From Sphingorhabdus sp. SMR4y (GTDB taxonomy: Bacteria; Pseudomonadota; Alphaproteobacteria; Sphingomonadales; Sphingomonadaceae): a stretch of DNA of 64,000 bases. Of the stretch, positions 41,583 through 62,924 are shown one piece after another (positions within the stretch are counted from its first letter, which is position 1; every line of letters begins with the position of its first letter). The notes beneath the pieces are model-generated. The model made no database searches. It worked only from the letters and a program-made list of their open reading frames with translations, and was not told where the DNA came from. The stretch is from NCBI RefSeq assembly GCF_002218195.1, contig NZ_CP022336.1, positions 1,669,001 to 1,733,000 on the forward strand. The letters are read 5' to 3'. The position numbers and the translations under genes are program-made.

Positions 41583-43946
41583 TCAGAAACGTCCGGTGAG
41601 CGTTAGCGTCGCACGGCGTTCATCGCCCTTGTAGAGGAAATGGCCGCTGCGATAACCGGCAAGATAATAATCCTTGTTGCCGACATTGGTCATATTGACC
41701 CGGGCTGACAGATTCTCGTTTACCTTGTAGCTCGCGAAGGCGTCGAAGGTCCAATAATCCGGAACCCGGTAGGTGTAGATTTCCAGCGTGCTGTCATAGC
41801 TTGCCGCATCATCCGGCTGGCCGGTGAACATCTCTCCCTTGTAGGTAGCGGTGCCGCCAAAGGCGAAAGCCTCTGTCGCCTGATAGCGCAGCTGCGCCGA
41901 GGCCTGGGTGTTGGAGAAGTTGCTCAGACGGCGACCGATTTTGTCGGCATCGTTCGAATCTGTAATTTCCGAGTCCATGAAAGTGACCGATGCCTGACCG
42001 GACAGTTTCGGCGTGATATTGCCGACCAGCCCCAGTTCGATGCCGCGTACGCGGTTTTCGCCGGTGTTCAGGCTGCCACCGGCCGTATAACCGTCACCAG
42101 CCGATTCAAACACGTCACTCTTGGTGATCTGGAAGGCAGCGGCCGTGAGCAGCAGATGATCGTCGAACAGATCCGCTTTCACACCCAGTTCATAGCTGGT
42201 CGAACTTTCCGGACGACCGTCACCGATGTCCGTTCCGTCATCGACGCAGATACCGCCGTAGCCGCAGTTTCCGCCCAGATCGGACTCACCGCCATTGATA
42301 TTCTTGGCCGTGCCCCAGTTGAAATAGACATAGACCTCGTCCATTGGCTTCACACCAATGCCGGCATGTCCGTTCCACAATGTGTCCTTGTAGCGATAGC
42401 CGGTTTCGGTGCCACGGCTGACAACATCATTGCTATAGTCGAACGCATCGACGCGAACGCCGCCGTGGATGGACAGCCAGGGATTGATGTCGACCGTATC
42501 CATCAGATAGACGGACATGGTTTCCACCTGCCAATTGCTGTCGATGGAACCGAAGGCGATATCACGTTGCAATATATCGTGGATATCGGTGACGATCAGC
42601 TCCCGGTTTTCATCGGTGATGCAGTAGGACGGGCTCAATCCGCCGCGTCCGGCAGTCACACAATTGGTGGCACCGTTGTTTGTGAGGTCATAGGTGCCGT
42701 TGGCGACCTTGAGATCGGAATATTCGACACCGGCGACCAGATTGTGCGCGATCGATCCGGTTTCAAACTCGCCGAGAATATTCAGCTGATTGACGAAATA
42801 TTCGACTTCCTGATTGCCCTGGTGGGTGCTCAGCGTGACCGGCGCGAAGGTGTCAGTGTCGGCATCATAAGCGCCGCCCCGAAGACCGGTCAGCACATAG
42901 CCGTTGGACGTTTCACCATAGCGGGTGGAATTGACGATCGTGAAACCCTCGAACGGTGTAATGAAGATACGTCCGGTAAAGGTATCGACAGTCGTGTTGA
43001 GAAAGTCTCCGGTCTGGGTGTAGTTCGGAACATCATCCCATGGACCATATACGGTCACATCGTTCGGACCCGTGCCGGTCGGCCGCGGTACATAGCCGCC
43101 CAGATCAGGCGTGTCGTCGGCTTCGAGGTGATAATAGTCGAGCAGCACGCGCACCGTATCGTTCAGCCGGAAGCTGCCCGAGACCGCCGCCCCGATACGC
43201 TCGCGATCCGAGAAATTGCGGTTCGGCGCCTCCTCATAGCCGTAAAGCAGATTGGCGCGCACAGCGATATCGTCGCTCAGCGCCCAGTTGCTGTCCAGAG
43301 TGACGCGATAAAAATCGTCGGTACCGATGCCGAGATCGATCCGGTTAAAATTATAGTCGGTGCTGGCCTGTTTGGTGATCGAGTTCACCGCGCCACCGGT
43401 CGAACCGCGACCGGCAAAAGAAGAGCTCGGGCCCTTGGTGATTTCAATCTGCTCGACCGCAAAGGTTTCGCGGGTGGTCATGCCCGGGTCGCGCAAACCA
43501 TCGACAAAAACGTCACTGCGCGCTTCGTGGCCGCGAATGATATAACGGTCACCAAAAGCGTTGCCGTTTTCGCCGGTACCGACGGTGACGCCGGGCTGGT
43601 TATCGAGAATATCGCGCAAATTGGTGGCGCCCTGTTCATCGAGCTGGCTTTCGGTCAGCACAGTGATCGTTGCCGGCGTTTCCGACAGCGGCTTCACTCG
43701 GCGCGGATCACCCGAAATACGGGCTTTATAGGGCGCGCCTTTCTGCGTGTAGGGATTGACGTCGGCCGCATTGTCTTCGATCTCGAGCGTTTCCAGTTCA
43801 ACCTCTTCAGGCTCGACCTCCTGTGCCAAAACGGGAGCGCTGGTCAGCGCCGTGGTCAGGCCCAATGCCATGACGGCACTGCGTTTACCAAAGCTCGAGG
43901 ACCGCAGGCTTGCTGGTCTTTGCATTTGGGACATGGTTTTTTTCAT
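41583..43946 (-). CDS. TonB-dependent siderophore receptor
   Basis: About 787 residues from ATG 43946. Signal peptide (VMALGLTTALTSAPVLAQ), plug domain (LRDILDNQPGVTVGTGENG, EITKGPSSSFAGRGSTGGAV) and a 22-strand barrel ending ATLTLTGRF with terminal phenylalanine. Neighbouring tonB/exbBD and piuC identify a ferric (catecholate-type) siderophore receptor close to PiuA/Fiu. The ligand cannot be read. Confidence 0.93.
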   Translation of the reverse strand: MKKTMSQMQRPASLRSSSFGKRSAVMALGLTTALTSAPVLAQEVEPEEVELETLEIEDNAADVNPYTQKGAPYKARISGDPRRVKPLSETPATITVLTESQLDEQGATNLRDILDNQPGVTVGTGENGNAFGDRYIIRGHEARSDVFVDGLRDPGMTTRETFAVEQIEITKGPSSSFAGRGSTGGAVNSITKQASTDYNFNRIDLGIGTDDFYRVTLDSNWALSDDIAVRANLLYGYEEAPNRNFSDRERIGAAVSGSFRLNDTVRVLLDYYHLEADDTPDLGGYVPRPTGTGPNDVTVYGPWDDVPNYTQTGDFLNTTVDTFTGRIFITPFEGFTIVNSTRYGETSNGYVLTGLRGGAYDADTDTFAPVTLSTHQGNQEVEYFVNQLNILGEFETGSIAHNLVAGVEYSDLKVANGTYDLTNNGATNCVTAGRGGLSPSYCITDENRELIVTDIHDILQRDIAFGSIDSNWQVETMSVYLMDTVDINPWLSIHGGVRVDAFDYSNDVVSRGTETGYRYKDTLWNGHAGIGVKPMDEVYVYFNWGTAKNINGGESDLGGNCGYGGICVDDGTDIGDGRPESSTSYELGVKADLFDDHLLLTAAAFQITKSDVFESAGDGYTAGGSLNTGENRVRGIELGLVGNITPKLSGQASVTFMDSEITDSNDADKIGRRLSNFSNTQASAQLRYQATEAFAFGGTATYKGEMFTGQPDDAASYDSTLEIYTYRVPDYWTFDAFASYKVNENLSARVNMTNVGNKDYYLAGYRSGHFLYKGDERRATLTLTGRF

Positions 43947-43963
43947 CGTCAATCTACCTTTTT

Positions 43964-44713
43964 TCAACGCGTTCGGAGGGAATAATCAATGGGCAGCGAG
44001 ATCGTCACTCGGTCTCGCTGCATGGATGCGGGCATCGCCGGCAAGGGCGCGACGCGCTGCATCAGTGCCAAGGTGGCCTGATCCAGGATATCGTGGCCAC
44101 TCGAACCGGTGATCGACACGTTTGAAATATTGCCGGTGCGATCAACGGTGAACCGGACCTTGACCACGCCTTGCTCTCGGGCCTTGCGGGCTTCGGTCGG
44201 ATATTTTTTGCGTTTGTTCAGATGTGCACTGACCATCGCATAATAATTGGCCCGCTCTTTCCTGGCTTTCGGGCTGTTGCCGGAAGTAGTGCTGGGCGCA
44301 GATCGCGCCGCGACGGTGGGGGGCGCCTCGCTAGTGGCGGGAGCCGCCACTGCAACGGGCGTGCCTTCCGCGTGCTGCACCGGCGTCACCGTGGATGGCG
44401 GCTGTTTGGTCTCGGTCGGCAATTTGATCGCGTCGTCCGGCAATGGCGCGCGCATCGGCGGAACCTCGAACGGCAGCGCTTGCTGTTGCGGCGGACTATA
44501 TTCCGGCTGCGATGCGGGCGTGGGCTCGGACAGCACCTCGCTCGCACTCGCAGGGGGAAGTTCCACGAGAACCACCGGTTCAGGGATGGGACGGTCATGT
44601 GGAGGCTTCCACGCCATGGCAGCCACGGCCAAGAAGGCATGTGCTGCCACAGCAATGGCTGCAGCGGTTGCCCAGCGACGTTTCTCGTCTGTGCCGAGCA
44701 GCCCCTCGTTCAT
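43964..44713 (-). CDS. tonB: TonB energy-transducing protein
   Basis: 249 residues. One N-terminal anchor (ATAAAIAVAAHAFLAVAAMAW), a proline-rich spacer (EPTPASQPEYSPP, PPMRAPLPDD) and the C-terminal TonB domain (YPTEARKAREQGVVKVRFTVDRTG). It connects the inner-membrane ExbBD motor with the receptor encoded downstream. Its start overlaps the exbD stop. Confidence 0.93.
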   Translation of the reverse strand: MNEGLLGTDEKRRWATAAAIAVAAHAFLAVAAMAWKPPHDRPIPEPVVLVELPPASASEVLSEPTPASQPEYSPPQQQALPFEVPPMRAPLPDDAIKLPTETKQPPSTVTPVQHAEGTPVAVAAPATSEAPPTVAARSAPSTTSGNSPKARKERANYYAMVSAHLNKRKKYPTEARKAREQGVVKVRFTVDRTGNISNVSITGSSGHDILDQATLALMQRVAPLPAMPASMQRDRVTISLPIDYSLRTR

Positions 44714-45940: not shown

Positions 45941-46011
45941 ATGCGAATCATTCGCATCACGGAGGAGGCAATTACAGCTTCTTATTGCTATTGCAAGTGA
46001 TTCTCATTATT
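45941..46011 (-). promoter_or_regulatory. Candidate Fur boxes upstream of exbB
   Basis: ATGCGAATCATTCGCAT (45941-45957) is a perfect palindrome, and TGATTCTCATTA, embedded in 45991-46011, resembles the GATAATGATAATCATTATC Fur consensus. Both sit directly upstream of the iron-cluster first gene. This is a pattern match only. Confidence 0.55.
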
Positions 46012-46090
46012 TACTGATCGTGAACCGGGAGATATATCCGATCTCCGGTCATTTGGTCGGATATTATACTGATCAGGCCTTCCTGTCCGC

Positions 46091-46243
46091 TCACTTGCAC
46101 CATCTCTGCAACCACCTGGAGCAGATCGGCCCCGGCTGCGGATGAATTTTGAGTTTCTGCCCATCGACTTCGATTTCACGTTGATGCAGACATCCGGACT
46201 TGATTGCCTGGTGCAATTCTCTAGGGCTTGCTAATCCAAACAC
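46091..46243 (-). CDS. Possible small protein (50 aa)
   Basis: A minus-strand frame from GTG 46243 encodes 50 residues with plausible composition: LASPRELHQAIKSG, then REIEVDGQKLKIHPQPG and a W/C-rich end. There is no clear ribosome-binding site and no family is recognised. A plus-strand 30-codon ORF overlaps it. It could be a leader or an eroded gene and is recorded because the codon pattern looks coding. Confidence 0.3.
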   Translation of the reverse strand: MFGLASPRELHQAIKSGCLHQREIEVDGQKLKIHPQPGPICSRWLQRWCK

Positions 46244-46280: not shown

Positions 46281-47186
46281 ATGACCCATTTTTACAGATG
46301 TTATAATCTCGCCATCGAAAGTGACATGGCATTGTCCGAAATGGTCGCTCTGACCGAAAAACCGGAAGCCATAGATGTGCGGATAACAGAGGGCGTGGTT
46401 AACCCGGACGGTTTGGACGGCGCAGAGCAGATTGGCCCCTTCATGTGGGCTTCTCCGACTGCCCTGCAATTACACATACCGGATGTTGCCCGGTTTCTGG
46501 TCAGCGACGGCGAGAGCATTGTTTATGATCCGGAACCCGGCATTGATGACGACAGCGTCCGGGTGTTCATGCTCGGCTCGGCACTGGGCGCGCTTCTGTT
46601 CCAGCGCGGCTATCTGGTTCTGCACGGCAATGCGGTACAAATCGGGGACAGCTGCATCATCTGTGTTGGCCACTCGGGTGCCGGAAAGTCCACACTCGCA
46701 GCCGCGTTCATGCAGCGCGGCTATAATCTGCTGGCCGATGATGTTGTGCCGATCGACAATGACTGCCTGGCGATTCCTGGTTTCCCCCGGATCAAGTTGT
46801 GGCAGGATGCCGCTGACAAGCTGGAAATCGATACAGAGCCTCTCAACCGGATCCGTCCGGATATGGAAAAATTCAATCTGCCGATAACGGAAAATTTCGT
46901 ATCCAAGCCGCTGCCGGTCAAGCATATTTATATTTTGCGCAGCGATGATGATGAAAACGGTTTCTCATCGACTTCCATCAAAGGCCTGCAAAAATTCCCT
47001 GCCCTCCATGCCAATACATATCGCCAGAAGTTTCTCGACAGCATGGATTTGCGGCCCGATCACCTCAATCTTTGCGGTAAACTCGCCGGGCAAACCGCGA
47101 TTACGCGTGTTGTGCGTCCGCGCCAGGGTTTTGAAATCGATCAACTGGTCGACCATATACTGTCTGACCTGTCCGAAAGCGTTTAA
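46281..47186 (+). CDS. HPr-kinase-like protein of a RiPP cluster
   Basis: 301 residues from ATG 46281. The C-terminal half is an HprK-type kinase: LHGNAVQIGDSCIICVGHSG with Walker A GHSGAGKST (130-138) and DDVVPIDND as the second nucleotide motif. In lasso-peptide clusters such kinases phosphorylate the precursor's terminal serine or act as regulators. The N-terminal 100 residues (VALTEKPEAIDVRITEGVV) resemble the PqqD-like RiPP recognition domain only weakly. It starts a two-gene plus-strand unit with the sulfotransferase. Confidence 0.8.
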   Translation: MTHFYRCYNLAIESDMALSEMVALTEKPEAIDVRITEGVVNPDGLDGAEQIGPFMWASPTALQLHIPDVARFLVSDGESIVYDPEPGIDDDSVRVFMLGSALGALLFQRGYLVLHGNAVQIGDSCIICVGHSGAGKSTLAAAFMQRGYNLLADDVVPIDNDCLAIPGFPRIKLWQDAADKLEIDTEPLNRIRPDMEKFNLPITENFVSKPLPVKHIYILRSDDDENGFSSTSIKGLQKFPALHANTYRQKFLDSMDLRPDHLNLCGKLAGQTAITRVVRPRQGFEIDQLVDHILSDLSESV

Positions 47187-47188
47187 AC

Positions 47189-48043
47189 ATGGGCGCGATA
47201 TACTGGCTGTCCTCCTATCCGAAATCCGGCAACACATGGTTCCGCACGTTCCTGCAGAATCTGCAACAGGACGGCGATGCACCGGTCGACATCAACGAGT
47301 TGCATACCGGATCGATCGCCAGCGGCCGCGGCTGGCTGGATGAAGTCCTGGGCTTTGATACCGCCGACATGCCGCATGACGATATCGATGCCTTGCGGCC
47401 CGCGGTTTACGAGTGGAGCCTGCAGCATCCTGATCTCGAATATCACAAGATCCATGATGCTTACACATTCCTGCCGTCCGGAGAACCTCTGGTCAGCAGC
47501 AAGGCAACGCGCGGCGCGGTCTATTTTATACGCAATCCGCTTGATGTGGCTTCTTCCTTCGCCAATCATTTGCAGTGCAGCGTCGACCAGGCGATCGAGC
47601 GGATGGCGTCGCCGGAAATGTCGTTTGTAAAATCAGCGAAAAAGCTGAACAATCAAGTGCGGCAGAAATTGCTCAGCTGGTCCGACCATGTGCTTAGCTG
47701 GGTCGATGCTCCCGGGCTCAATCTCGAGATTCTTCGCTATGAAGACATGCTCTCCGACAGCCTCGCAACATTTACCCGGGCCGCACGCTTTCTGGAGCTT
47801 CCCCATGACCAGCCGCGGGTTGAAAAAGCGCTCCATTTCAGCCGTTTTGACCGTTTGCAGGAGCAGGAAAAATCGGGAGGGTTCAAAGAGAAGCCAGCCA
47901 ATACGCCTTCCTTTTTTCGGCAAGGCAAGAGCGGCGGCTGGCGGGAGGAACTCAACGACGAACAGATTGCCAAAATCATTGCCGATCATGGACCGGTGAT
48001 GCGGCGCTTCGACTATCTCGACCAGAACGATAACCCCCTATAG
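47189..48043 (+). CDS. Sulfotransferase-domain protein
   Basis: 284 residues. The 5'-phosphosulfate loop is YPKSGNTW (residues 10-17) and the 3'-phosphate-binding region follows at FIRNPLDVASSFANHL. GKSGGWREELN at the end fits the C-terminal PAPS-binding loop. It transfers sulfate from PAPS to a hydroxyl or amine. Coupled by a two-base gap to the kinase, it may tailor the cluster's product, which would be unusual for a lasso-type cluster. Confidence 0.85.
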   Translation: MGAIYWLSSYPKSGNTWFRTFLQNLQQDGDAPVDINELHTGSIASGRGWLDEVLGFDTADMPHDDIDALRPAVYEWSLQHPDLEYHKIHDAYTFLPSGEPLVSSKATRGAVYFIRNPLDVASSFANHLQCSVDQAIERMASPEMSFVKSAKKLNNQVRQKLLSWSDHVLSWVDAPGLNLEILRYEDMLSDSLATFTRAARFLELPHDQPRVEKALHFSRFDRLQEQEKSGGFKEKPANTPSFFRQGKSGGWREELNDEQIAKIIADHGPVMRRFDYLDQNDNPL

Positions 48044-48100
48044 AGCAATGCGGTCCGCCCCCCGCTGCTGGCTGAGAGGGCAGCCAAGCGATTGCCCATG

Positions 48101-49363
48101 CTAAAGCTCTGCCAGAAACCCGCCCGTCAGGACTTGCGGAAGACTGCCGCCAAAACCGTTATTGCCCTCGAGCAATATTGGGCCGCTGGGGGTTAACACC
48201 CAATCCCATGCGATCGCCCAGAAACCGGGAAACTGGCGATGCGCCAATCGGCTGTAATCGATCAGCGCTTGCCAATCGGGCAGTGGCCGTTGTTCACCCA
48301 ATTCCGCCAGCACATCCCGCTGTTTCTGCCGCGCCTGCTCATTCAGAAACATTTTGCCGGGAAGCGGGCGCGCCAGTCCACTGCCCGTGTCGATTGGCAA
48401 GATAACATATATCTCGTGCTTGTCCGTCGGACTCCGTTCGGTGGGGACTTCCAGTGAAGCGCATAAAATGGCGATGTCCTGTCCGTTCTGACGCGTGATA
48501 CAGCGGACGGTGACGGCACGCCCGTCCGGCACCAGAGGAGCAAGCTGCGGATGATTTTGCAACGCCGGTTGTATCAGAGCATGGTCGCGTTGCATCAAGG
48601 CGTCCCACGCCGCAGTCACCGATTGTTGATCGGGCAGCGCATCTCCCTCGAACATCCGGCCTTCTATGGTCTGCCCATCTTGCCAGCATTCAAACGCCCC
48701 GAGCCCGCGATTGCCGGATCTGCTTTTGCAAAACAGACGGCGATGCGCTCTCAAAGCATCAAGAAAATCAAAATCGTCTGTTTTGGCAACGGTTGCCAAA
48801 ATCGGCGCCATCGGTATCCCGCTGGACAGCAGGATATCGGTCGCCTCGGCTTTGTCTCCCAGCCGGGGCGTCAACTGCGAAGCGGCAGGCTGACGACCGT
48901 TCTGCCACCTGTGAAAAGCGGCAACATGACGGTCGCTGACAAAGTTCCACAGGCGCGCGGGATGTTCGATCAACCCGAAACGATAGACATCACCGGGCGG
49001 CATGCACGCTCCGATGCTGAGCCGGACGAGCCGAGAAAACTGGCGAGCAATGGAAATGCCGTGCCGGTCACGGGTCACAACGCCCTGTCGGCGCAAGATC
49101 CGGAACAGGGCCGGCCAGCCGAACAGTCCGGACCATTTCAGCCACAACAGGGCTTCAAGCGCCAGATAAAGCGGTTTCGGCACGCCGGGCAATGCATTCC
49201 AGAATATTTGCCTGTGCGCTGCCACATTTGGGCTCCCCTCAAACAAATAACGCCAACTGATCAACCCATGAGGGATATTGCGCCCCCAGAGTTCCCGGCG
49301 GAGCACCTTCAACAATTTTGCCGCCTTGCTAAGCAACCGACAGCCCGTGCAGCCAGGCATTAA
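48101..49363 (-). CDS. ATP-grasp protein (sugar-transfer-associated type)
   Basis: About 420 residues from ATG 49363, inside the end of the asparagine-synthetase-like gene (35-bp overlap); longer in-frame starts lie in that gene. The C-terminal half matches the ATP-grasp fold of sugar-transfer-associated proteins: FCKSRSGNRGLGAF, IQPALQNHPQL and WDWVLTPSGPILLEGNNGFGG with the metal-binding E-x-N. It may ligate a carboxylate and an amine. Translational coupling to asnB supports joint action. Confidence 0.75.
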   Translation of the reverse strand, partial: LMPGCTGCRLLSKAAKLLKVLRRELWGRNIPHGLISWRYLFEGSPNVAAHRQIFWNALPGVPKPLYLALEALLWLKWSGLFGWPALFRILRRQGVVTRDRHGISIARQFSRLVRLSIGACMPPGDVYRFGLIEHPARLWNFVSDRHVAAFHRWQNGRQPAASQLTPRLGDKAEATDILLSSGIPMAPILATVAKTDDFDFLDALRAHRRLFCKSRSGNRGLGAFECWQDGQTIEGRMFEGDALPDQQSVTAAWDALMQRDHALIQPALQNHPQLAPLVPDGRAVTVRCITRQNGQDIAILCASLEVPTERSPTDKHEIYVILPIDTGSGLARPLPGKMFLNEQARQKQRDVLAELGEQRPLPDWQALIDYSRLAHRQFPGFWAIAWDWVLTPSGPILLEGNNGFGGSLPQVLTGGFLAEL

Positions 49364-51215
49364 GCCACTGCAATGCGTGTATGTGCCGCATGGTCTGGAA
49401 ATCCCGAATGTCATCGAAGCCGCCCGCCTCAATCCGCTCGATCTTCGTGCGCCATTTGTCACGGTCGATCATGTCGACCAGCATCGGGTGCAGGTCGGCA
49501 TCGATTTGCTTCATGCTGGCGACAAGTTCGCCGGTATCGCGCATTGAAGGCGATTGCCGTTCCCCCATATATTTGGATCTTTTCCATGCCACCCGGTCCG
49601 GCACCGTTCCCGTAATCGCTCGACGATGCAGATATCGTCCCATTCCGCCCGGCCCCGCGCGCTCAATTATCGGCGTGGACAGATATTGCTGTACCAGCCG
49701 CTTGTCCCAAAGCGGCCAACGATAATCAATGCCGTAGGATGCAGCCATCAATGTGCAATTCTCGAGCCGCGTCGGCACATAGGCCATCTTCAACAGTCCG
49801 CTGATGATCCAGTCATTATGTTTGCGATGAACAGCATCATAGCGGGCCGTTTCCATATATTCCCGCTGCAGATCATAGCGTTCAACAATCTCGTCGCGCA
49901 GCGGCTGCTCCGGCCATCTTTCTCTCCAGGCCGTCAGGAAATTGGGATTATATCCGGCATTTTTCCGCTCGGCATATATCCGTCTGAGCAGCCGGTATAT
50001 CCGCATCGGCAAATTGCCTTTCATCAGGTCAATCGCGGCCTTGTAAGCTCCCTTGTCGACCAGTTCCCGCTGGATGTGATTGGCATAGTTGGTCACCACT
50101 TCATCGCCGCCATATCCGGAGAACAATGTCCTGATCCCGTAGGTACGACATTGATCGTAGAAAGGCCGGTGCGACGTAGCATTGCCATGTTCTTCCGGAT
50201 AACCAAGTATCTGGAGATCCTCCTGCATCTGATCTGTCGAGTAAACAGCATATCCATAATGTGAAGTATTGATGTGATTATGGGCGATTGACGCGGCCTG
50301 ACTGGTTTCCAGAATATAGGCAGGCTCTTCTGCCGAAAGCGCGAAGCCAAAACTGTGCAGCCGGTCACCCGGAACACCGAGAAACTTCCCGAGATATGCT
50401 GTAATGGTTGCGGAATCGATGCCGCCGCTATTCTCCGTTCCGAGCGTATAGTCGCTGACCATCTGGGAGCGCATCGTCTCTTCCAGAACCGCGCGATAGG
50501 CCTCCACTCGGGCCGGGTCGCGGGTAAAAATATCCGGCGCATCATCGCGCCATTGATGATAGCGCCGCAACGCATATTTGCCGTCGGACACGCTCATCGC
50601 ATGCCCGCCCGGCAATTTCATGATTTCATTATAGGCCGTTCGGTCCTGGCTCTTGGACTGCCCTATGACATAACGCGCAATCCACGCGGGATCTGGCGTT
50701 GGCCTGGCATTTTTCAGCTTCAGCAGAGCCGCCGGCGTGGATGCGAAGATCAGGCCTTTTTCGTGTGGCCAATAGTAGAAGGGTTTGACGCCGACCGGGT
50801 CGCGGGCCAGAAATGCGGTTTGCTTTTCGCTGTCGATAATTGCCAGTGCAAAGTCCCCGGCAAGTCTTTCAGGCAGGTCCTCTCCCCATTCAAGCCATCC
50901 GGCCAGAACAAGCCTGGCATCAGGAGTTTCATCCAGCGGCCGGTCCAGCGCAAGCTGTGCTGCAAGTTCATCGCGATTGTCGAGCCGCCCCCAGAAGGCA
51001 ACGCGGAACCGGCCCGCCACCAATGGCACTGCGTCGATATGATGCGATGACGGCGTATTGAAAATGTCGGCCTCTACCAGCAAACTGCGTTGATCACGCT
51101 GAAAACCGCTCACATCCGGTTTACACCGGGGATAGAGAGACGAAATCCAGGTTTCCGGTTCAACCCATGCTTCGACCGGTGGAGCATTTTCAAAACACAG
51201 CAGACCTGCGAACAT
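49329..51215 (-). CDS. Asparagine-synthetase-like cyclase (lasso C-type)
   Basis: 628 residues. The N-terminal glutaminase-like domain starts MFAGLLCF; the catalytic cysteine at position 2 is replaced by phenylalanine, so glutamine hydrolysis is not expected. The synthetase domain has the PP-loop ENSGGIDSATI (262-271). Lasso cyclases have just this arrangement and activate an Asp/Glu side chain to close the ring. The YLRR/GRYLHRRAITG end is typical of the family. Its divergent partner genes are pqqD and B2. Confidence 0.85.
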   Translation of the reverse strand: MFAGLLCFENAPPVEAWVEPETWISSLYPRCKPDVSGFQRDQRSLLVEADIFNTPSSHHIDAVPLVAGRFRVAFWGRLDNRDELAAQLALDRPLDETPDARLVLAGWLEWGEDLPERLAGDFALAIIDSEKQTAFLARDPVGVKPFYYWPHEKGLIFASTPAALLKLKNARPTPDPAWIARYVIGQSKSQDRTAYNEIMKLPGGHAMSVSDGKYALRRYHQWRDDAPDIFTRDPARVEAYRAVLEETMRSQMVSDYTLGTENSGGIDSATITAYLGKFLGVPGDRLHSFGFALSAEEPAYILETSQAASIAHNHINTSHYGYAVYSTDQMQEDLQILGYPEEHGNATSHRPFYDQCRTYGIRTLFSGYGGDEVVTNYANHIQRELVDKGAYKAAIDLMKGNLPMRIYRLLRRIYAERKNAGYNPNFLTAWRERWPEQPLRDEIVERYDLQREYMETARYDAVHRKHNDWIISGLLKMAYVPTRLENCTLMAASYGIDYRWPLWDKRLVQQYLSTPIIERAGPGGMGRYLHRRAITGTVPDRVAWKRSKYMGERQSPSMRDTGELVASMKQIDADLHPMLVDMIDRDKWRTKIERIEAGGFDDIRDFQTMRHIHALQWLNAWLHGLSVA

Positions 51216-51391
51216 ATTCTGGATTGGCCCCTTGTTGATTATTCCGTTGGGACCACTAGGGTGATATCGAATTGCATGCCAGTGCTTTTCACGTTGTCCT
51301 GCGCCTCATGCTCCTATCCCGCTTGTATCGTTTGCCAGCCAGACTTCCCTTTGATAATGCCATTAGAAATTCAACCACATGAGACTTATTT
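51216..51391. other. Divergent intergenic region of the RiPP cluster
   Basis: 176 bp between asnB-like (minus) and pqqD-like (plus) genes; AT-richer than its neighbours and a natural place for a divergent promoter and a precursor gene. An ORF at 51276-51395 encodes 39 residues with four cysteines (TLSCASCSYPACIVC), ending in an ATGA overlap with the pqqD start. It has no good ribosome site, so it is only a candidate. Confidence 0.35.
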
Positions 51392-51676
51392 ATGAGCGAA
51401 TTGACCCTCGACAGTGTCGTACAGCGCAATCCTGAGATGGTAGCCGCCGAAATGGACGGCGAAATGGTAATGATGAGTATCGAAGACAGTGCCTATTACG
51501 GGCTGAACGCAGTGGGTTCCGATCTGTGGGACGCCATGGAAAAGCCGGTTAGCATCGCCGCCCTGTGTGATCAGGTGACCAAGAATTTTGACGTCGACCT
51601 CGCGACTTGCCAGAGCGATGTCATGGAATTGCTGACGGATTTGCGCGAACGCAATCTGGTGCAGCTGGCAGAGTAG
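51392..51676 (+). CDS. PqqD-family RiPP recognition protein (lasso B1-type)
   Basis: 94 residues. PqqD/B1 features are VQRNPEMVAAEMDGEMVMMS, DSAYYGLNAVGSDLWDAME and a terminal VMELLTDLRERNL helix. It should bind a precursor leader and bring it to the B2 protease and the cyclase. It is followed three bases later by the B2 gene. Confidence 0.85.
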   Translation: MSELTLDSVVQRNPEMVAAEMDGEMVMMSIEDSAYYGLNAVGSDLWDAMEKPVSIAALCDQVTKNFDVDLATCQSDVMELLTDLRERNLVQLAE

Positions 51677-51679
51677 AAA

Positions 51680-52183
51680 ATGGAGGGTTTCTCTCCCGTC
51701 GCAACGGACATGATCAAGACCCTGAAACGAAAATTTGTGACGGCAAAGCAGATGCCGCCGTTATTCTACCTCTGGCTGGGCCCTGCATGGGTGCTCCTGG
51801 GGCTGAGCCGTCTGGTCATCCTCACCGTGACCTTCAAGCGTTTCGCCCATTGGCTCGGAATGCACGACGGCCTGGCCCCGCGCACCCCGGTGACGACAGA
51901 GGAACAGGCGAAGCGCGCACGCGCTATAAGCAGCGCCATTATTGTCGCAGCCAAATTTGCGCCATGGAAAGCCAATTGCTTTCCCCAGGCGATCACCGCC
52001 CGTCTGATTCTGGGTGTACACAATATCCCCTACGCCCTCTTTTTCGGCCTGATGCGCAGCAAGCAGGAGGAAGACCTGGGCGAGATCAAGGCCCATGCCT
52101 GGGTGGTGTCGGGCCGGGTAAATGTCACAGGCGGCCGCAGCTTCGGGCAATTCACATCGGTGGGCTGCTTCGTCTCGAAATAA
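51680..52183 (+). CDS. Lasso-peptide biosynthesis B2-type protease
   Basis: 167 residues. The transglutaminase-like catalytic residues are C100 in PWKANCFPQA and H139 in IKAHAWVV, the standard B2 motifs. It would remove the leader peptide before cyclisation. Two membrane-like stretches (LWLGPAWVLLGLSRLVIL) precede the domain, a common feature of B2 proteins. Start uncertain by a few codons. Confidence 0.88.
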   Translation: MEGFSPVATDMIKTLKRKFVTAKQMPPLFYLWLGPAWVLLGLSRLVILTVTFKRFAHWLGMHDGLAPRTPVTTEEQAKRARAISSAIIVAAKFAPWKANCFPQAITARLILGVHNIPYALFFGLMRSKQEEDLGEIKAHAWVVSGRVNVTGGRSFGQFTSVGCFVSK

Positions 52184-52215
52184 GCCTGCGCCGTTGATAC
52201 CGGAGATATTTTCTC

Positions 52216-52380
52216 GTGAAACCAAACGATAAGCCGACTGAGGATAGCCACCCTGCGGACAATATCCCGATATTGCTGTTGCACAAGCGCCGGTTCGTGC
52301 ACTCATGTTCCCGGATTTATTCTCCGCCGTTCAATCCGATTTCAGGCAAAAACCTTATGAGCCGATCGTGTCGCCAGTGA
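52216..52380 (+). CDS. Possible short ORF after B2, alternative precursor candidate
   Basis: A 54-residue frame from GTG 52216 with GGAG about ten bases upstream: it starts KPNDKPTEDSHPADNIP and ends with a basic C-terminus. A second frame, from ATG 52305 to 52424, encodes 39 residues including KPYEPIVSP, faintly like the lasso-leader YxxPxL, and ends GGQFEPF. Neither has clear support. Only one of the two can be real, if any. Confidence 0.25.
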   Translation: MKPNDKPTEDSHPADNIPILLLHKRRFVHSCSRIYSPPFNPISGKNLMSRSCRQ

Positions 52381-52401
52381 TCAATCGCCTGCAAAGGCAG
52401 G

Positions 52402-53640
52402 GTGGCCAATTTGAACCATTCTAAAGGATTCCTCGGAGAAGCCTTCAGCGGCGGGTGGAGAATTCTGCTGGCTGGCGTGATGGGCATGGCACTGGGGATC
52501 AGCGCGCTGCCCTTCTACACATTAGGCGTTTTTGCGCAGCCGGTTGCCGATGATTTCGCCTGGTCGCGAACGATGGTTGTATCCGGTCTGTCCTTCCAGA
52601 TGGTCGGCACCGTGCTGGTTGCCTGGCTGGCAGGCTGGATGATCGACCGCTATAGCGTTCGGAAGATCGCGCTGTTCAGCCAGGCAGGACTTGCTCTGGC
52701 TTTCTTCTTGCTGGCTTTGCAGAACGGATCGCTCTGGCTGTGGCAGCTGAACTGGTTCATGCTGGCGCTGCTCGGTATAGGGACCTCTCCGATGAGCTGG
52801 TCCCGCGGCATTGTCGAAAAGTTCGAGAGCGGTCGTGGCCTTGCTCTCGGCATTGCCCTGTCGGGCAGCGGTATCACCGCTTTTGCCGGACCGCCGCTAA
52901 TTGAAACCATTATCGAGGCATATGGCTGGCGCGCGGGCTATTTTGCCCTGGCTGGCGCCATCACGCTGGTCGGGATTCCCTCCACATGGTTTCTTTTCCG
53001 GATTTCCGCCCAGCAAAACGCCGGCTCGCCTGCGAAAACAACCAGCCTGCTGACCGGCCTGAGCTTCAGACAGGCACTTTCAACGCGCCATTTCTGGCTG
53101 ATTCTTCTGGCATTTTGCACGATCACTTTCGCGATAAGCGGAACCATTCCCAATCTTGTGCCGATCATGCAGACAATGGGCATCAGGCAGGCTGCTTATT
53201 ATGTGAGCCTGATCGGCATTGCGATTATCTTCAGCCGTCTGATCAGCGGTTATCTGATCGACCGCTTCTGGGCTCCCGGAGTGGCAGCCACGCTTGTGCT
53301 GATTGCAGCGGGTGCCTGCGGGCTGCTTTCTCAGGGCATTGCGCCGGCTTTCGCCGTTATCGCTATCGGCGTGGCCGCCGGCGCCGAGTTTGACCTGATC
53401 GCTTTCCTCTGCGTCCGCTATTTTGGCATGCGCGCCTATGGTCGCATCTATTCTTGGCTCTGGGCCGGATTTGCCCTTGCAACAGGCATGGGCTCAATCA
53501 CGATCGCCTATTTCGTCGAGACGGGCCTCGGTCCGGCCGGCGTCATGCTCGCCGTTGTCGGTGCCCTGGTTATCGCGGCAGCAGCGCTGCTGGCACTGGG
53601 CCGCTATCCGGATCCCCGGGAATGGGACCATTCCGCCTGA
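52402..53640 (+). CDS. MFS transporter of the RiPP cluster
   Basis: 412 residues from GTG 52402, with twelve membrane segments. Hallmarks are the loop-2/3 signature AWLAGWMIDRYSVRKIAL and GRGLALGIALSGSG in the middle. The family is OFA/monocarboxylate-like in overall shape. It follows the B2 gene and may export the cluster product, but common MFS families cannot be told apart by eye. Confidence 0.85.
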   Translation: MANLNHSKGFLGEAFSGGWRILLAGVMGMALGISALPFYTLGVFAQPVADDFAWSRTMVVSGLSFQMVGTVLVAWLAGWMIDRYSVRKIALFSQAGLALAFFLLALQNGSLWLWQLNWFMLALLGIGTSPMSWSRGIVEKFESGRGLALGIALSGSGITAFAGPPLIETIIEAYGWRAGYFALAGAITLVGIPSTWFLFRISAQQNAGSPAKTTSLLTGLSFRQALSTRHFWLILLAFCTITFAISGTIPNLVPIMQTMGIRQAAYYVSLIGIAIIFSRLISGYLIDRFWAPGVAATLVLIAAGACGLLSQGIAPAFAVIAIGVAAGAEFDLIAFLCVRYFGMRAYGRIYSWLWAGFALATGMGSITIAYFVETGLGPAGVMLAVVGALVIAAAALLALGRYPDPREWDHSA

Positions 53641-54924: not shown

Positions 54925-56172
54925 ATGAGCAGAACCCGATCCATTGGCAGTGCCAAAAGCACTTCGCTGGCGACAGTTGCGATATCGGCCCGGCCCTCCC
55001 GCATCGGGTGGACCGGCGCGGTAGCGGCATTTGCATTTCAATTCGGCCTGTCCACTCCTGCCGCGGCCTCCTTCTTTGATATCGAAAAGGATAATGCCGC
55101 TCCATGCGAGTCTGCCGTGAAGCCGGTTGCCAGTAAATCCGAGGCCATATTGGGCCGCGAGATGAGCGCATTGGAAGCCGTGCAGGCTAACCAGCGTCTG
55201 GATGCCAAATCGGCCTGCCGCGGCGCGTCAATCGTTGCCTCTGAACCGGTTGTTGTGGTTTCTCCCAAAATAGCAGTTAACACAATTTCCGCCGGTGCTG
55301 ATTTCGACAAGGCGGCAGAGGCATTGGCTATCACAGCAAATCCATCTGTACTGGCAGAGACGTTAGCCAATTTGAGCGGGAAGCAGTTTCGCGGACGGTC
55401 CGGCCCCTTTTCCGGTTTTGCATCCGCCAGGTTCATGGCTCCCCTTAAAGCCGGACCCGCCGTACCTCGAAAAGCAACCCCCGATCCAACGGTTCATAGA
55501 TTCGCGAGTGTAGCAACGTCCAACGAGGACAAATTAACTGCGGCAACGAAAACAAGAGTGCCCCGGGGCATGCCTGCAGCAACTCGGCCATTTAGCGGCA
55601 AACCTGACATTTTCGGTTCTGTGGCCTTGAGAGTCAGTCACACTCCGCTGGATAGGAAATGGCGCGACGCACAAAGCGGCGGAGGAACGGCCATGGCCAG
55701 AGCGGCGTTGGTCAGGGCCGGTGCGACCCTTGGCGCCAATTACAAAGAAGAGAATATCCGGGCGGTGAACCGCTGGATAAACGCCAATATAACATATGTC
55801 GAGGACCGCAAACTCTATGGACGGGAGGATCACTGGGCAAGCGCCGGAACAACGTTGAAAGCGGGACGCGGCGATTGCGAAGACTTTGCCATCGCCAAAA
55901 TGCAGCTGCTGCAGGCCAGCGGCGTAAAGGCATCTGATATGTTTCTGGTCATTGCCAAAGATCTGGTTCGCCGGTCCGATCATTCCTTGCTCGTCATCCG
56001 TGTCGGAAACCAGATGCTGGTGCTGGACAACGAGACGGACCAGATACTGGACGCCGACGATATCCGCGATTACCGGCCGATCATGAGCTACAGCGCGAAC
56101 GGGAAATGGCTACACGGCTATCCGGCCAAGCCAAGCGGAACCCAGATCGCGTCGCTTGCTATCGGAAGATAG
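54925..56172 (+). CDS. LapG-like transglutaminase cysteine protease (BTLCP family)
   Basis: 415 residues. The catalytic triad is C318 in GRGDCEDFAIAK, H353 in RRSDHSLLVIR and D368 in VLDNETD, which are the hallmarks of periplasmic BTLCP proteases. LapG cleaves large adhesins at the cell surface. The N-terminal 240 residues, Ala/Pro-rich, are longer than in LapG and unrecognised. It lies convergent with the type I secretion operon, which makes an adhesin-processing role likely. Confidence 0.85.
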   Translation: MSRTRSIGSAKSTSLATVAISARPSRIGWTGAVAAFAFQFGLSTPAAASFFDIEKDNAAPCESAVKPVASKSEAILGREMSALEAVQANQRLDAKSACRGASIVASEPVVVVSPKIAVNTISAGADFDKAAEALAITANPSVLAETLANLSGKQFRGRSGPFSGFASARFMAPLKAGPAVPRKATPDPTVHRFASVATSNEDKLTAATKTRVPRGMPAATRPFSGKPDIFGSVALRVSHTPLDRKWRDAQSGGGTAMARAALVRAGATLGANYKEENIRAVNRWINANITYVEDRKLYGREDHWASAGTTLKAGRGDCEDFAIAKMQLLQASGVKASDMFLVIAKDLVRRSDHSLLVIRVGNQMLVLDNETDQILDADDIRDYRPIMSYSANGKWLHGYPAKPSGTQIASLAIGR

Positions 56173-56180
56173 CCACTGCC

Positions 56181-57449
56181 TCAGCGTTCGGTCAGTGCCT
56201 GCGATCTCGCCCGCAGTACCGGCTTGAGCAAGTAGCTCAATATGCTTTTCCGGCCGGTCAGTATTTCGACATCGCATATCATGCCGGGAGTGATGGGCAA
56301 TTTTTTGCCGCCGGATTGCAGCCATGCCTGGTCGGTTTCAACGATGACAGTAAAATAGGCTTCCTGCTTTACTTCGTCGTAAATGCTGTCCGCCGAGACT
56401 TGCACGACATTGCCCTGCAGGCCACCGTAAATCGAGAAATCATAAGCTGTCACTTTGACATTGGCGCGATCCCTGACCCGGATAAAAGCAATATCGCTGG
56501 GCCGAACTCTCGCCTCTATCAACAATTTGTCACCGATTGGAACCACCTGCATGATTTTTTCACCAGGCCCAACAAATCCGCCGATTGTCGTTATTTGTAC
56601 ATCGTTGACAATACCATCCACCGGAGACCGGATTTCGGAACGTTCCAGACGGCCCTGCGCCCCTCGAATGGATTCCTGATTTACGGCTATTTTTGCAGCA
56701 ATCTGGCTCCGTTCGTTCAGTGCTTCCTGACGGAACTGGAGATTTGCTTCGGACAATTGCGCCTGAGCCTCCCGTACTGCCGCACCTGCACGCGCTACGC
56801 TTTGACGGGCGGCCGCAAGGCGGCCTTGCAGATCAACCAATTCGCGCTGTGCTGTCATCAACTCGGTTTGCGGGATGATCGATTTTGCCGCGAGAGGTTG
56901 CAACAGATTGACCTGATCTTGCGCCAATTTGACACTGCCCTGCAGGCTAGACACTGTGGCCTGCGCCTCGCTCTGGTCCCGTCGCCGTTGTTCGATAGCG
57001 GCAGATAGTCCGGACAATCTGGAACGCAAAGCTGCCTGACGAGCTTGTTGCAACACGGCCTCCTCGGCACAGGGCGCGCCGGGCGGACAGTCGCTAACCG
57101 TCCCGCGACCTTCCTGCCCCAGACGCGCAGCCCTTGCCGACAGGGATCTGTTCTCGGCCTGGATTTGTCCAAGCTCCGAGGAGGAGTCTGTATCATCCAG
57201 TCTAGCGAGCAATTGCCCTTTTTTGACCTGTTCACCTGACCGAACGAGAATGTCGGATACGGTCGACGGATCACTCGCCTGTACCACTTGCACCTTGCTC
57301 GAAGGTATTACCCGTCCCTGACCACGGGTAATTTCATCGACCTGCGCGAGGCTCGCCCAGACGATGAACAGGAACATGCCCAGCGCTCCAATCAACAGGA
57401 TACGCTGACTACCGTTTAACGCGCTCAGCGAAGACAGCAGCGACTTCAT
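56181..57449 (-). CDS. Type I secretion membrane-fusion protein (HlyD family)
   Basis: About 422 residues from ATG 57449, overlapping the upstream hydrolase stop (ATGA). One membrane anchor (ILLIGALGMFLFIVWASLAQ), a long coiled coil and LRSGEQVKKGQLLARLDDTD, with a C-terminal RIRSPVDGIVNDVQ-like lipoyl part. It connects the ABC exporter and TolC. Confidence 0.92.
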   Translation of the reverse strand: MKSLLSSLSALNGSQRILLIGALGMFLFIVWASLAQVDEITRGQGRVIPSSKVQVVQASDPSTVSDILVRSGEQVKKGQLLARLDDTDSSSELGQIQAENRSLSARAARLGQEGRGTVSDCPPGAPCAEEAVLQQARQAALRSRLSGLSAAIEQRRRDQSEAQATVSSLQGSVKLAQDQVNLLQPLAAKSIIPQTELMTAQRELVDLQGRLAAARQSVARAGAAVREAQAQLSEANLQFRQEALNERSQIAAKIAVNQESIRGAQGRLERSEIRSPVDGIVNDVQITTIGGFVGPGEKIMQVVPIGDKLLIEARVRPSDIAFIRVRDRANVKVTAYDFSIYGGLQGNVVQVSADSIYDEVKQEAYFTVIVETDQAWLQSGGKKLPITPGMICDVEILTGRKSILSYLLKPVLRARSQALTER

Positions 57450-58549
57450 TGACCGACGCCTTCCGAACCCGTTTTGGCCGCCGGTGCGGGCGCATGCTGA
57501 ATATTTGTCAATTTGGCGAAATTCCCTCTTGTTTCCGAAGGCTCTGGTATCCGCAACGTCCAACCCTTATTGACATCAAGCCGTCCGCCAACGTCGGTTT
57601 TTGCGTGACGGTCTGTCACCGCGGGCGGCACCGAGAGGCCGGTTTTTGCGAAATCGATAACAGCCGCGTCTTCGATCTCTTCGGACGGCTTTCTAATCAA
57701 GTCCAGCGACGGAATATATTCGCGACCCGAATATCGACTGCTGAACGCCGCGCGCTGTCCCCATGCACCGGGCCAAGCATAGAAAATATGCGCACCCAGC
57801 TGTTTGATCTTGGCGAGCTTGGGAGCCCAGTAAGGCGATACATAGTCGGCATGGTAATGGGTTGCCGTTCCTACGCTGGCTTCGACGAAGCCGGCCAGCG
57901 CGGCTTCTGCAACCGATCTCGAAACGGCCCAAGCAGCTTTTTGTGGTTTACGAAACAAGGCACCGTCGCAGGTAAAGCTGAATTGGCAAACACGCGCCTG
58001 ATGTCCCTGGTATATGACCCCGCATACCGACGAAGGAAAAGCGGGATGGCGCACGCGGTTCAACACCACCTGGGCGACGGCTCGCTTGCCACCAAGTGGT
58101 TCAAAGCCCGCTTCGTAATAGATCGCCTGCGTGAGACAAATCTCGGCGCGCGCGACTTCGTTGGCAGCGATATCAGCCAACCTGAAAGGCCGAGCGACAG
58201 GAACAAGTTGATCGGAAAATGGCAATGCCTCATTTGCGACCTTCGCATTTTCACCTGTTACAACAGCTTCCGCAAGCTCACCTTGTGTAGCTTCGATAAG
58301 CATTTTCTGTTCCGCTGTTCTTTCAGCAGACATCGCTGCTGCTTCCGGCAGAATTGCGCTATCGGCATCCAGCAAGCTAAGGATCGGACCACTCCAGCGG
58401 TCATGGGTAGCCCAGGTTATCACGGCGATGGCCAGCAACAGCGATAACAGAAAGAATACGGGACGTTGGCCTATGTTTTGGCCGCTGTCCGAACCGACCA
58501 GAGCCGTGCGCATCGGTTTCGCCGCTCCGAGTTTGGGTTGGTGAATCAT
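57446..58549 (-). CDS. SleB-type cell-wall hydrolase
   Basis: 367 residues. One N-terminal membrane helix (FFLLSLLLAIAVITWA), then the Hydrolase_2 domain: CLTQAIYYEAGFEPLGGKRA, VLNRVRHPAFPSSVCGVIYQG and QFSFTCDG, with the catalytic glutamate in YYEAGFE. It would cleave peptidoglycan in the periplasm. It is translationally coupled both to the ABC exporter (58546-58549) and to HlyD, an unusual position. Confidence 0.88.
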   Translation of the reverse strand: MIHQPKLGAAKPMRTALVGSDSGQNIGQRPVFFLLSLLLAIAVITWATHDRWSGPILSLLDADSAILPEAAAMSAERTAEQKMLIEATQGELAEAVVTGENAKVANEALPFSDQLVPVARPFRLADIAANEVARAEICLTQAIYYEAGFEPLGGKRAVAQVVLNRVRHPAFPSSVCGVIYQGHQARVCQFSFTCDGALFRKPQKAAWAVSRSVAEAALAGFVEASVGTATHYHADYVSPYWAPKLAKIKQLGAHIFYAWPGAWGQRAAFSSRYSGREYIPSLDLIRKPSEEIEDAAVIDFAKTGLSVPPAVTDRHAKTDVGGRLDVNKGWTLRIPEPSETRGNFAKLTNIQHAPAPAAKTGSEGVGQ

Positions 58550-60696
58550 GATAGTTTCCCGCCATTGCCAACCCGCGACAAAATTTCGTCCCGCGGGCCG
58601 TCCGCGACGATGCGGCCATGGTCCATCACGATGATCCGATCAACAATCGACAAAATCGCTTGCCGGTGCGTGGATATTACCAGTGTCTGGTCGGGTTCGA
58701 GCGCGCTTTTGAGATGATCAATGAACTGGCGTTCCGTCTCGACGTCCATCGCGCCAGTCGGTTCGTCAAGATAGAGCAACTTAAACGGACTCATCAAGGC
58801 ACGGGCGAGAACAAGGAAGCTGCGCTGTCCGCCAGACAAGCTTGCACCGCGTTCTCCCGCAAGCCGGTCAAAGCCGACGGCATCACGGGCAAGAAACTTG
58901 TCAGCACCGGATTTGCGCAATACCGCCATCATATGGTCCTGATCGCTCTTTGCAGCGCCAAGCGTCAGGTTTTCCTTGATGGAGCCGCTGAAAAGTTCGG
59001 AATCCTGACCGACGTACCGAAAGACGGATCGCAGTCCCCGCGGAGGATATTGCCGGCTGTCCAGACTGTCGACCAATATTGCGCCGGACGCCGGTGGATA
59101 TAGTCCGCAGATCAATCGGCCCAATGTAGACTTGCCGGAAGCAACACGACCGATCACCGCGACCCTTTCGCCTGGCCGGAACGTGACGTTCAGGCTCGAC
59201 AGAGATTCAGTATCCGCTTCCGGATAGGCAAAACTGACGTTGTCAAAAACAATCTCACCCGCGCTGACTTCTGGCGTTATCGAGCGACTGCCCAAACCGC
59301 GTTCATCGACTTGCTCGGTCATTGTCTGAATACTGTCCAGTGTCAAAAATGCCTGGCGGCCCCGCGTCATCAGGAACGCCAGCTGACCGACCGGGCTCAA
59401 TGAGCGTCCGGCAAGCATGACGATGGCGATGATCGCGCCCATCGAGATGACGCCTGCGTTGAACAGGTAAAATCCCCCGATTATCAGGCTGATGCTGGTG
59501 ATCTGCTGGCACAGGGAAGCCAGATTGATCGCGACGGCGCCCAATCGCCGCATTTTTTCCTGCGTATCGGCGCTCATCTGCGCGTAGTTTCTCCACCGCG
59601 ACAGCATCCGGCCTTCGGCGCCACAGGCCTTCAATGTTTCAATACCAGCGATGGACTCAACCAGCATCGAATGCTGCAAGCTGGAATCCGCCTGCGCCTC
59701 AAAAGCCGCAACTCCCATTTTCTTCTGCAGGACATAGCCTGCAACCAGCATGATGAGGATCATCACGACCGGCACCAGCGCGAGCCAGCCAGCCAGCACT
59801 GCAATCAGCGCGACGAAGATGACCAGAAACAGCATATCGATGATGAGAACAATCGTCGTTGACGCAAAAAAGTCGCGGACGATTTCATATTCCGACACCC
59901 GACGCACCATCGCTCCGGTACTACCGGAGCGGCTACCCAGCGGGATGTTAACGATTTTCTCGAACAGCTTCTGCGACAGTTTGGTATCAAGCTTGCGGCC
60001 GGTCTCGTCGATAAGCCGCGCCCGGGCCAGCCGCATGCCAAATTCGAGAACGAAGGCAAGAAAAACGCCGACGGCGAGCACCCAGAGGCTTGCTGATGCT
60101 TTGTTCGGGATGACCCGATCATAGACATTCATCGTAAAAAGCGGGAGCGCAAAGCCAAGCATGTTAATGAACAGGGCCGCGCCCGCAACCTGCTTGAATG
60201 CACCGCTTTCCTTGCGCATTTCATCCCAGAACCAATGGCTCTTTCGTGCAGCATCCCACGGCCGTTCATGTTGACGAATTTTTGTAGCATCCGGCGCTAC
60301 AGAAATTATTTCTCCATCTTGTTCAGCCGCAAGTTCGCTGACCGATATCGATTGCATACCGTTCGCAGATGGTCGGAATATGAGGAATTCATCGTCATTC
60401 TGCTCGAGCACTACGGCAGCGTTGCCATCCTGCAACGAAATCATGGCCGGCAGATGCTTGTCCGAAAGTCGCGCCAGTTTGCGCGCCACGGGAGTGGCTT
60501 TGAGTCCCAGAAGTTCAAGTGCCGGTTCTACCTGATGAAACGGCAGACAGCCGGCTTCGTCAACGGCCAGTCCCGAGCGCAGGATAGGCGCAGATGTAGT
60601 CTGACCAAAATGTTCGGCCAGAAACACCAAGCAATTCAGAACTTCGTCGCTACGAGTTTCATCATCACCTGGCATGTCAGGCATTTCCATGTTCAA
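58546..60696 (-). CDS. Type I secretion ABC exporter (LapB-like)
   Basis: 716 residues from TTG 60696 with AAGGAA upstream. The N-terminal C39-like domain (LNCLVFLAEHFGQT...) lacks the catalytic Cys-His pattern, as in LapB-type exporters for adhesins. A six-helix membrane domain follows, then the ATPase: Walker A GRVASGKST, signature LSGGQ, Walker B LLYLDEPTGAMD. It probably exports an RTX-like adhesin. Confidence 0.9.
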   Translation of the reverse strand: MNMEMPDMPGDDETRSDEVLNCLVFLAEHFGQTTSAPILRSGLAVDEAGCLPFHQVEPALELLGLKATPVARKLARLSDKHLPAMISLQDGNAAVVLEQNDDEFLIFRPSANGMQSISVSELAAEQDGEIISVAPDATKIRQHERPWDAARKSHWFWDEMRKESGAFKQVAGAALFINMLGFALPLFTMNVYDRVIPNKASASLWVLAVGVFLAFVLEFGMRLARARLIDETGRKLDTKLSQKLFEKIVNIPLGSRSGSTGAMVRRVSEYEIVRDFFASTTIVLIIDMLFLVIFVALIAVLAGWLALVPVVMILIMLVAGYVLQKKMGVAAFEAQADSSLQHSMLVESIAGIETLKACGAEGRMLSRWRNYAQMSADTQEKMRRLGAVAINLASLCQQITSISLIIGGFYLFNAGVISMGAIIAIVMLAGRSLSPVGQLAFLMTRGRQAFLTLDSIQTMTEQVDERGLGSRSITPEVSAGEIVFDNVSFAYPEADTESLSSLNVTFRPGERVAVIGRVASGKSTLGRLICGLYPPASGAILVDSLDSRQYPPRGLRSVFRYVGQDSELFSGSIKENLTLGAAKSDQDHMMAVLRKSGADKFLARDAVGFDRLAGERGASLSGGQRSFLVLARALMSPFKLLYLDEPTGAMDVETERQFIDHLKSALEPDQTLVISTHRQAILSIVDRIIVMDHGRIVADGPRDEILSRVGNGGKLS

Positions 60697-60742
60697 CGCA
60701 GGTTCCTTGTCATCAAACTACTAAAATACAACGCAAACCATA

Positions 60743-62140: not shown

Positions 62141-62156
62141 TTTTCATCCCCCCTGC

Positions 62157-62879: not shown

Positions 62880-62924
62880 TTTGCCCTCCGGAAAGTCGGT
62901 TTCCCAATCATTATCTGCTTTTTG

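Follow-up and report, generated by a model that had tools for sequence, protein, structure and literature searches.

The DNA analyzed here is a 64,000-nt stretch of Sphingorhabdus sp. SMR4y (NZ_CP022336.1, positions 1,669,001–1,733,000; hereafter designated the window; G000:C1 1669.0–1733.0 kb, G000 being the window genome), in which we found a locus that, judged from sequence, most probably encodes a lasso-peptide maturation system served by dispersed precursors. The precursors appear to be encoded in trans, at least 10 of them in the window genome, so that a single set of enzymes would seem to act on many peptides. The six enzymes of the locus, whose identities and positions in a first-pass annotation of the window were all upheld, are as follows (bit-score cut-offs are those of the NCBI curated lasso models).

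46281–47186, + strand: HprK-like peptide kinase (K; PF07475, E-value 1.2e-8)
47189–48043, + strand: sulfotransferase dependent on 3′-phosphoadenosine-5′-phosphosulfate (ST; PF00685, E-value 6e-22)
48101–49462, − strand: ATP-grasp ligase (PF14397, E-value 4e-16; start uncertain, about 49333–49462)
49329–51215, − strand: lasso-type macrolactam cyclase lacking Cys2 (C; asparagine synthase/GATase_7, PF00733 and PF13537)
51392–51676, + strand: B1, a PqqD-like leader-binding protein (RiPP recognition element, RRE, where RiPP is a ribosomally synthesized and post-translationally modified peptide; NF033536, 85.5 bits, above the cut-off of 80)
51680–52183, + strand: B2, a lasso leader peptidase (Transglut_core3; NF033537, 70 bits, above the cut-off of 33)

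The precursors were traced through related clusters. Four genomes of two other genera (loci L014–L017) carry one operon of the order K-ST-B1-B2-C, followed 3′ of C by an open reading frame (ORF) of 48–55 residues that bears the marks of a lasso precursor, e.g., MTQHGSSKQLENSAKRPYRKPELTCLDADQTATGPATFTQEVLIYYTPPS. A profile built from these four cis precursors (A1) gave weak matches elsewhere in the three cluster-bearing congeners (G000, G308, and G316), eight of which read as full precursors, and a second profile built from eight full precursors selected among the A1 matches (A2) retrieved nine further precursors outside its training set, eight at E-values of 6e-13 to 1e-5 and one (L056) at 0.11. 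E-values are inflated once matches join a profile, and weight was placed on the non-training matches and on cluster-negative genomes; the genome-wide statements on precursors rest on these profile searches. The complete trans precursors number 17, comprising 10 in G000, four in G308, and three in G316. In the window genome, their genes sit 31 kb to more than 1 Mb outside the window, at the following approximate positions.

G000:C1, kb: 1564.0, 1573.1, 1764.5, 1768.4, 1847.9, 1969.3, 2778.0, 2809.4, 2809.9, and 2810.3

All trans precursors, exemplified by MTRENKPMPASRDRKRKYEKPSLVLLSDTTRVEGKTSLSYETTTVGLSFGPS, MNRNEAKTHEATMKRAYEKPVVVLLDIQESEGKVYNATESAGDFAGPS, and MKTSNKSEATPAKRIYEKPELTEIVLEDYTEGKKSVGIEAGTLVGAS, have a Y/W-x-K-P leader motif in common, and each of the 17 carries Lys as its second core residue, Glu as its eighth or ninth, and Ser at the C-terminus. 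The first core residue is Gly, Ser, or, in one case, Ala, and position −2 is mostly Thr, Ser, or Val, with Ala in three; Val(−2) has been described for lasso precursors of Sphingomonadales (PMC10368454). The cores comprise about 16–20 residues with a predicted ring of 8 or 9, many of them containing no acid besides Glu8/9, and no trans precursor matched any Pfam or NCBIfam family. The genes occur singly or in tandem among ordinary genes, except for L052 and L056, located on either side of a tailoring locus described below. A locus following a Sir2-like gene holds three precursor copies in G000, two in G308, and one in G316, and in a syntenic pair from it (L051/L040) the leader (92% DNA identity) and the 3′ flank (91%) are much better conserved than the core (60%), which is the pattern expected of a putative precursor with a diversifying core. 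No convincing k-mer emerged as a promoter motif shared 5′ of the precursors and the cluster. A second small ORF family, ending in LTSLFRAS, was set aside, being nearly invariant, devoid of Gly-Lys, and present in the cluster-less G317. A near-invariant small ORF, YEKPELIQLSEIHEKTDALLTSLFRAS (L055, L047, L049, and L034), with a lasso-like leader and no Gly-Lys core was seen in G000, G308, G316, and the cluster-less G317.

The cluster itself holds no such gene. The first-pass annotation had observed that no precursor was annotated at the locus, and this is correct: the intergenic gaps contain no small ORF conserved across the congeneric clusters, and neither pattern nor profile searches of the whole window revealed a lasso-type precursor. 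Likewise, no ORF of the cluster or window combined a [Y/W]xxP leader with the usual Thr (or Ile/Val) at position −2 and an acid at core position 7–9, and no related cluster was found to have a precursor directly 5′ of the kinase gene. The cis candidates at 46011–46115 (−), 46091–46243 (−), 46142–46234 (+), and 51289–51429 (−), among others, were rejected as unconserved in the congeneric clusters and lacking the leader motif. The idea of a single peptide with a hidden precursor within 46–54 kb is therefore replaced by that of precursors encoded in trans.

The association of the precursors with the cluster was examined in a genus sample of 33 genomes, of which three (G000, G308, and G316) have the window-type cyclase and 30 do not. 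Complete precursors were found in 3 of 3 genomes with this cyclase and in 0 of 30 without it, and in a family sample of 401 genomes the sole other profile matches were the own cis precursors of two genomes. The cluster-less G305 has neither cluster nor precursors, its ExbB being 88% identical to that of the window and as close as those of G308 and G316. One atypical precursor-like ORF (L072, C165:3210–3320), with HGK and no terminal Ser, occurs in the cluster-less G313, an assembly that is 67% complete; it may be a decayed copy or reflect the incomplete assembly. The gene content, the precursor sequences, and their association with this cyclase clade are established.

The H...GHSGAGKS...DD residues of lasso kinases (the H-G-G-G-K-S-D-D motif, taken from PMC10368454) are intact in K, and in the ST alignment the SYPKSGNTW motif is conserved, as is RNPLDV except in L111 (RDPWDV). 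The cyclase begins with MFAG and thus lacks the glutaminase cysteine (Cys2); its ATP loop reads SGGIDS. B1 matches the solved lasso B1 proteins 9x90 (PDB) and TbiB1, and the Cys and His-Ala-Trp of B2 are kept in nine homologues. The ATP-grasp ORF overlaps the end of C, and its Lys203, Asp377, Glu389, and Asn391 are invariant across six orthologues; a weak structural model (mean predicted local distance difference test score, 67) matches the folds of Ddl, RimK, and PsnB, which indicates nothing beyond an ATP-grasp ligase. There is good support for a lasso-peptide cluster in which a kinase and a sulfotransferase would carry out tailoring. The combination had at first been taken as unusual; it is less so than thought, since kinase and sulfotransferase genes have already been reported in lasso clusters (PMC8498205). 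It is scarcely credible that the genes serve exopolysaccharide or cofactor synthesis and involve no peptide. The name of the PF14397 family does refer to an association with sugar transfer, but a Pfam scan of the cluster proteins found no glycosyltransferase or polymerase, B1 and B2 pass the lasso models, and precursors exist in trans and in related clusters. The first-pass annotation had itself reserved the exopolysaccharide explanation for conserved neighbourhoods devoid of a peptide; as clear cis-encoded lasso precursors accompany the related clusters, the neighbourhoods do not bear it out.

Nevertheless, several points weigh against the dispersed-precursor system. The cluster-bearing genomes are congeners, so that the co-occurrence is an association, not proof, and does not represent three independent events. 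In the three remaining pairs compared, all syntenic or nearly so, the contrast between leader and core was weaker. No third catalytic residue (Asp) was identified in the B2 alignment, and the cyclase reaches 239.7 bits with NF033535 against a cut-off of 525, which is a model threshold and no biochemical criterion. Moreover, the window genome has two further loci to which some precursors may belong, or with which they may be shared. One, at 0.33 Mb (G000:C1 323000+, L110:8680–17334), is a second locus of lasso type. Its cyclase is distant, and it has a cis precursor of its own, ending in GGANLRTTDDVAGDNYRAS; it also encodes B1, two HprK-like kinases, a 2-oxoglutarate oxygenase, two Asp/Asn-hydroxylase-like proteins, and two sulfotransferases, but gave no match to B2 at the search threshold. 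The other, a tailoring locus at 1.765 Mb (G000:C1 1758000+, L059:5312–10502), encodes an Asp/Asn hydroxylase, an HprK-like kinase, PqqD, a sulfotransferase, a CxxCxxCC protein, and a GT8 gene product, with no cyclase or B2 seen, and is flanked by the dispersed precursors L056 and L052.

On the strength of this second cyclase with its cis precursor and of the two flanking genes, it might be argued that a precursor belonging to the cluster itself has escaped detection in or near the locus, and that the scattered ORFs belong to the 0.33-Mb or 1.765-Mb systems. We consider this improbable, because G308 holds four precursors and yet only the window-type cyclase (at E ≤ 1e-30, the threshold of the search for other lasso-type cyclases in congeners), G312 with a cyclase-like gene of another type has no such precursors, the cluster gaps contain no conserved small ORF, and, within the same cyclase/ATP-grasp clade, the cis precursors of Chromatiaceae show the core layout of the scattered ORFs. 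G316 has another cyclase-like gene besides the window type. The additional genes of G316 (L121) and G312 (L117) represent a further cyclase-like asparagine-synthase family with no MCG start, the G316 copy adjoining a glycosyltransferase-like gene. Separately, contig C8 of G251 (L076 and L080) carries a second lasso locus with at least two cis precursors (VEGGSMNGPETAGPGFFSGS and VEGGASPATETISPGAFSLS), a cyclase, and PqqD-like and sulfotransferase-like ORFs.

The low cyclase score could also mean that the products are linear or otherwise cross-linked phosphorylated or sulfated RiPPs with no threading, the cyclase being degenerate or performing other chemistry, and related linear polyphosphorylated peptides do have a kinase and YxxP leaders (PMC13381572). 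This, too, seems unlikely: those linear systems are described with an SpI peptidase, whereas here B2 and the SGGxDS motif of the cyclase are both conserved among homologues, and every precursor has an acid at core position 8/9.

In a phylogenetic tree, the window cyclase groups, with good support, with Chromatiaceae cyclases whose ATP-grasp gene is adjacent, and this ATP-grasp-bearing clade is sister to the four cyclases of L014–L017, near which no ATP-grasp gene was detected. Next to the ATP-grasp gene, two of the Chromatiaceae loci have a small ORF whose C-terminus reads GGKHRTPFELPDVSSYGPS or AGKNNAGFEAGVGMSLVRS, with YxxP upstream in each, and these cis ORFs share the Gly-Lys...Glu...Ser layout with the trans precursors. 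The Gly-Lys motif is absent from the L014–L017 cores (4 of 4). Thus, in samples that are small and related, a Gly/Ser/Ala-Lys core start was found in 19 of 19 precursors from genomes that have the ATP-grasp gene and in 0 of 4 from genomes that lack it, which suggests that the conserved Lys of the Gly-Lys motif may be the ATP-grasp substrate. An older K-ST-B1-B2-C cluster might have received C and the ATP-grasp gene in inverted orientation, but the support for this idea is only partial: the nearest homologues of K and ST are in sphingomonads, and those of B2, as well as of C, are in Chromatiaceae. No relative of the ATP-grasp ligase or of the trans precursor tested was found in the plasmid collection, and no cyclase relative in viral contigs. 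In all four L014–L017 genomes, the proteins encoded next to the cis precursor, on its downstream side, look like phage-tail-collar or microcystin-dependent proteins.

Based on the enzyme families, the following pathway is inferred, the ATP-grasp reaction being its least certain step. B1 would bind the shared Y/W-x-K-P leader, YxxP being a known RRE contact (PMC13381572). The HprK-like kinase most likely would phosphorylate the invariant C-terminal Ser (after PMC9266682), and the sulfotransferase would put sulfate on a hydroxyl. B2 would then remove the leader, usually leaving Thr, Ser, or Val at position −2, and C would link the new N-terminus (Gly/Ser/Ala1) to Glu8 or Glu9, closing the ring. 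The ATP-grasp ligase may form a further amide, perhaps at the invariant Lys of Gly-Lys. The first-pass annotation had proposed several tailoring steps on one peptide; the tailoring part stands with the well-supported kinase and sulfotransferase, and the single peptide gives way to many in trans.

The boundaries and neighbourhood of the cluster are described by the following additional features.

46024–46029, no strand: left edge of the inserted block, where DNA homology to cluster-less congeners stops
51216–51391, no strand: divergent intergenic region between C and B1, with no conserved small ORF
52402–53640, + strand: major facilitator superfamily (MFS) transporter (PF07690), a possible accessory exporter with a weak link to the cluster

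The same block is present in G308 (L012) and G316 at about 79–84% DNA identity to the window, the G316 assembly splitting the cyclase gene between L104 and L105. The MFS gene adjoins B2 in G000 and G316 and is missing from the G308 copy (2 of 3 copies). Homology to cluster-less congeners reaches 46023 in G305 and 46011 in G313, and the G308 alignment breaks at 46029; as the homology stops at 46011–46023, just 5′ of the kinase gene, the block behaves as an insertion. It adjoins a conserved receptor-tonB-exbD-exbB block, which includes a TonB-dependent receptor at 41583–43967 and is not cluster-specific, because it is also conserved in the cluster-less G305. No isopeptidase was found among the neighbouring genes scanned. 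The view that the locus departs from the usual sphingomonad lasso cluster with its TonB receptor and isopeptidase therefore holds in part: there is neither a cluster-specific receptor nor an isopeptidase in the scanned neighbours, but a TonB receptor does lie nearby. Further downstream, window positions 54925–63941 contain a BTLCP protease, type I secretion genes (HlyD, a C39-like ATP-binding cassette (ABC) transporter, and OEP), and OmpA; these resemble a Lap-type adhesin system and are probably unrelated to the cluster.

The locus resembles the paeninodin-type and proteobacterial phosphorylated lassos (PadeK, ThcoK, and SyanK; PMC9266682, PMC8498205) in its separate B1 and B2, HprK-like kinase, and precursors with C-terminal Ser, and some of those clusters also have sulfotransferase genes; unlike in those systems, its precursors are dispersed, at least 10 in the window genome, with a Gly-Lys core start, and it has an extra ATP-grasp ligase and no in-cluster ABC exporter. 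The L014–L017 clusters share the same K, ST, B1, B2, and cyclase families and a sister cyclase clade, but have a single cis precursor right after C (K-ST-B1-B2-C-A), no ATP-grasp gene detected nearby, and cores without Gly-Lys. The Chromatiaceae C/ATP-grasp/B1/B2/HprK loci (L005, L111, and L112) have adjacent cyclase and ATP-grasp orthologues and, in two, Gly-Lys...Glu...Ser precursors; they differ in that the precursor of these two lies in cis beside the ATP-grasp gene, and the short L005 contig shows a partial gene set. Graspetides (PsnB and relatives; PMC8939145) share the ATP-grasp ligase fold, but the window enzyme is of PF14397 and is accompanied by a lasso cyclase, B1, and B2; no graspetide precursor was identified, and the precursors match no known family. 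Several precursors within one lasso cluster are known (PMC13381572), whereas no report of lasso precursors dispersed away from their enzymes was found in a literature search that left subscription journals and preprints largely outside.

The arrangement recalls the prochlorosins, lanthipeptides in which one enzyme set acts on many precursors with a shared leader and diverging core, many of them unlinked to the enzymes, although the chemistry differs, being that of a LanM dehydratase/cyclase. Tentatively, and with some doubt, the locus may represent a lasso counterpart of the prochlorosins whose phosphorylated and sulfated products bear an ATP-grasp-derived amide on the conserved Lys, a family undescribed in the literature searched. 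The pairing of an ATP-grasp ligase with the cyclase suggests a modification unreported for lasso peptides in that literature, and the link to the conserved Lys makes it directly testable. Genome-mining tools seek lasso precursors beside the enzymes; here their result would be an orphan cluster, with all of its precursors overlooked. Should enzymes and precursors indeed be unlinked, distant substrates may also exist for further orphan lasso clusters, and one natural enzyme set tolerating at least 10 very different cores would be useful for making lasso libraries.

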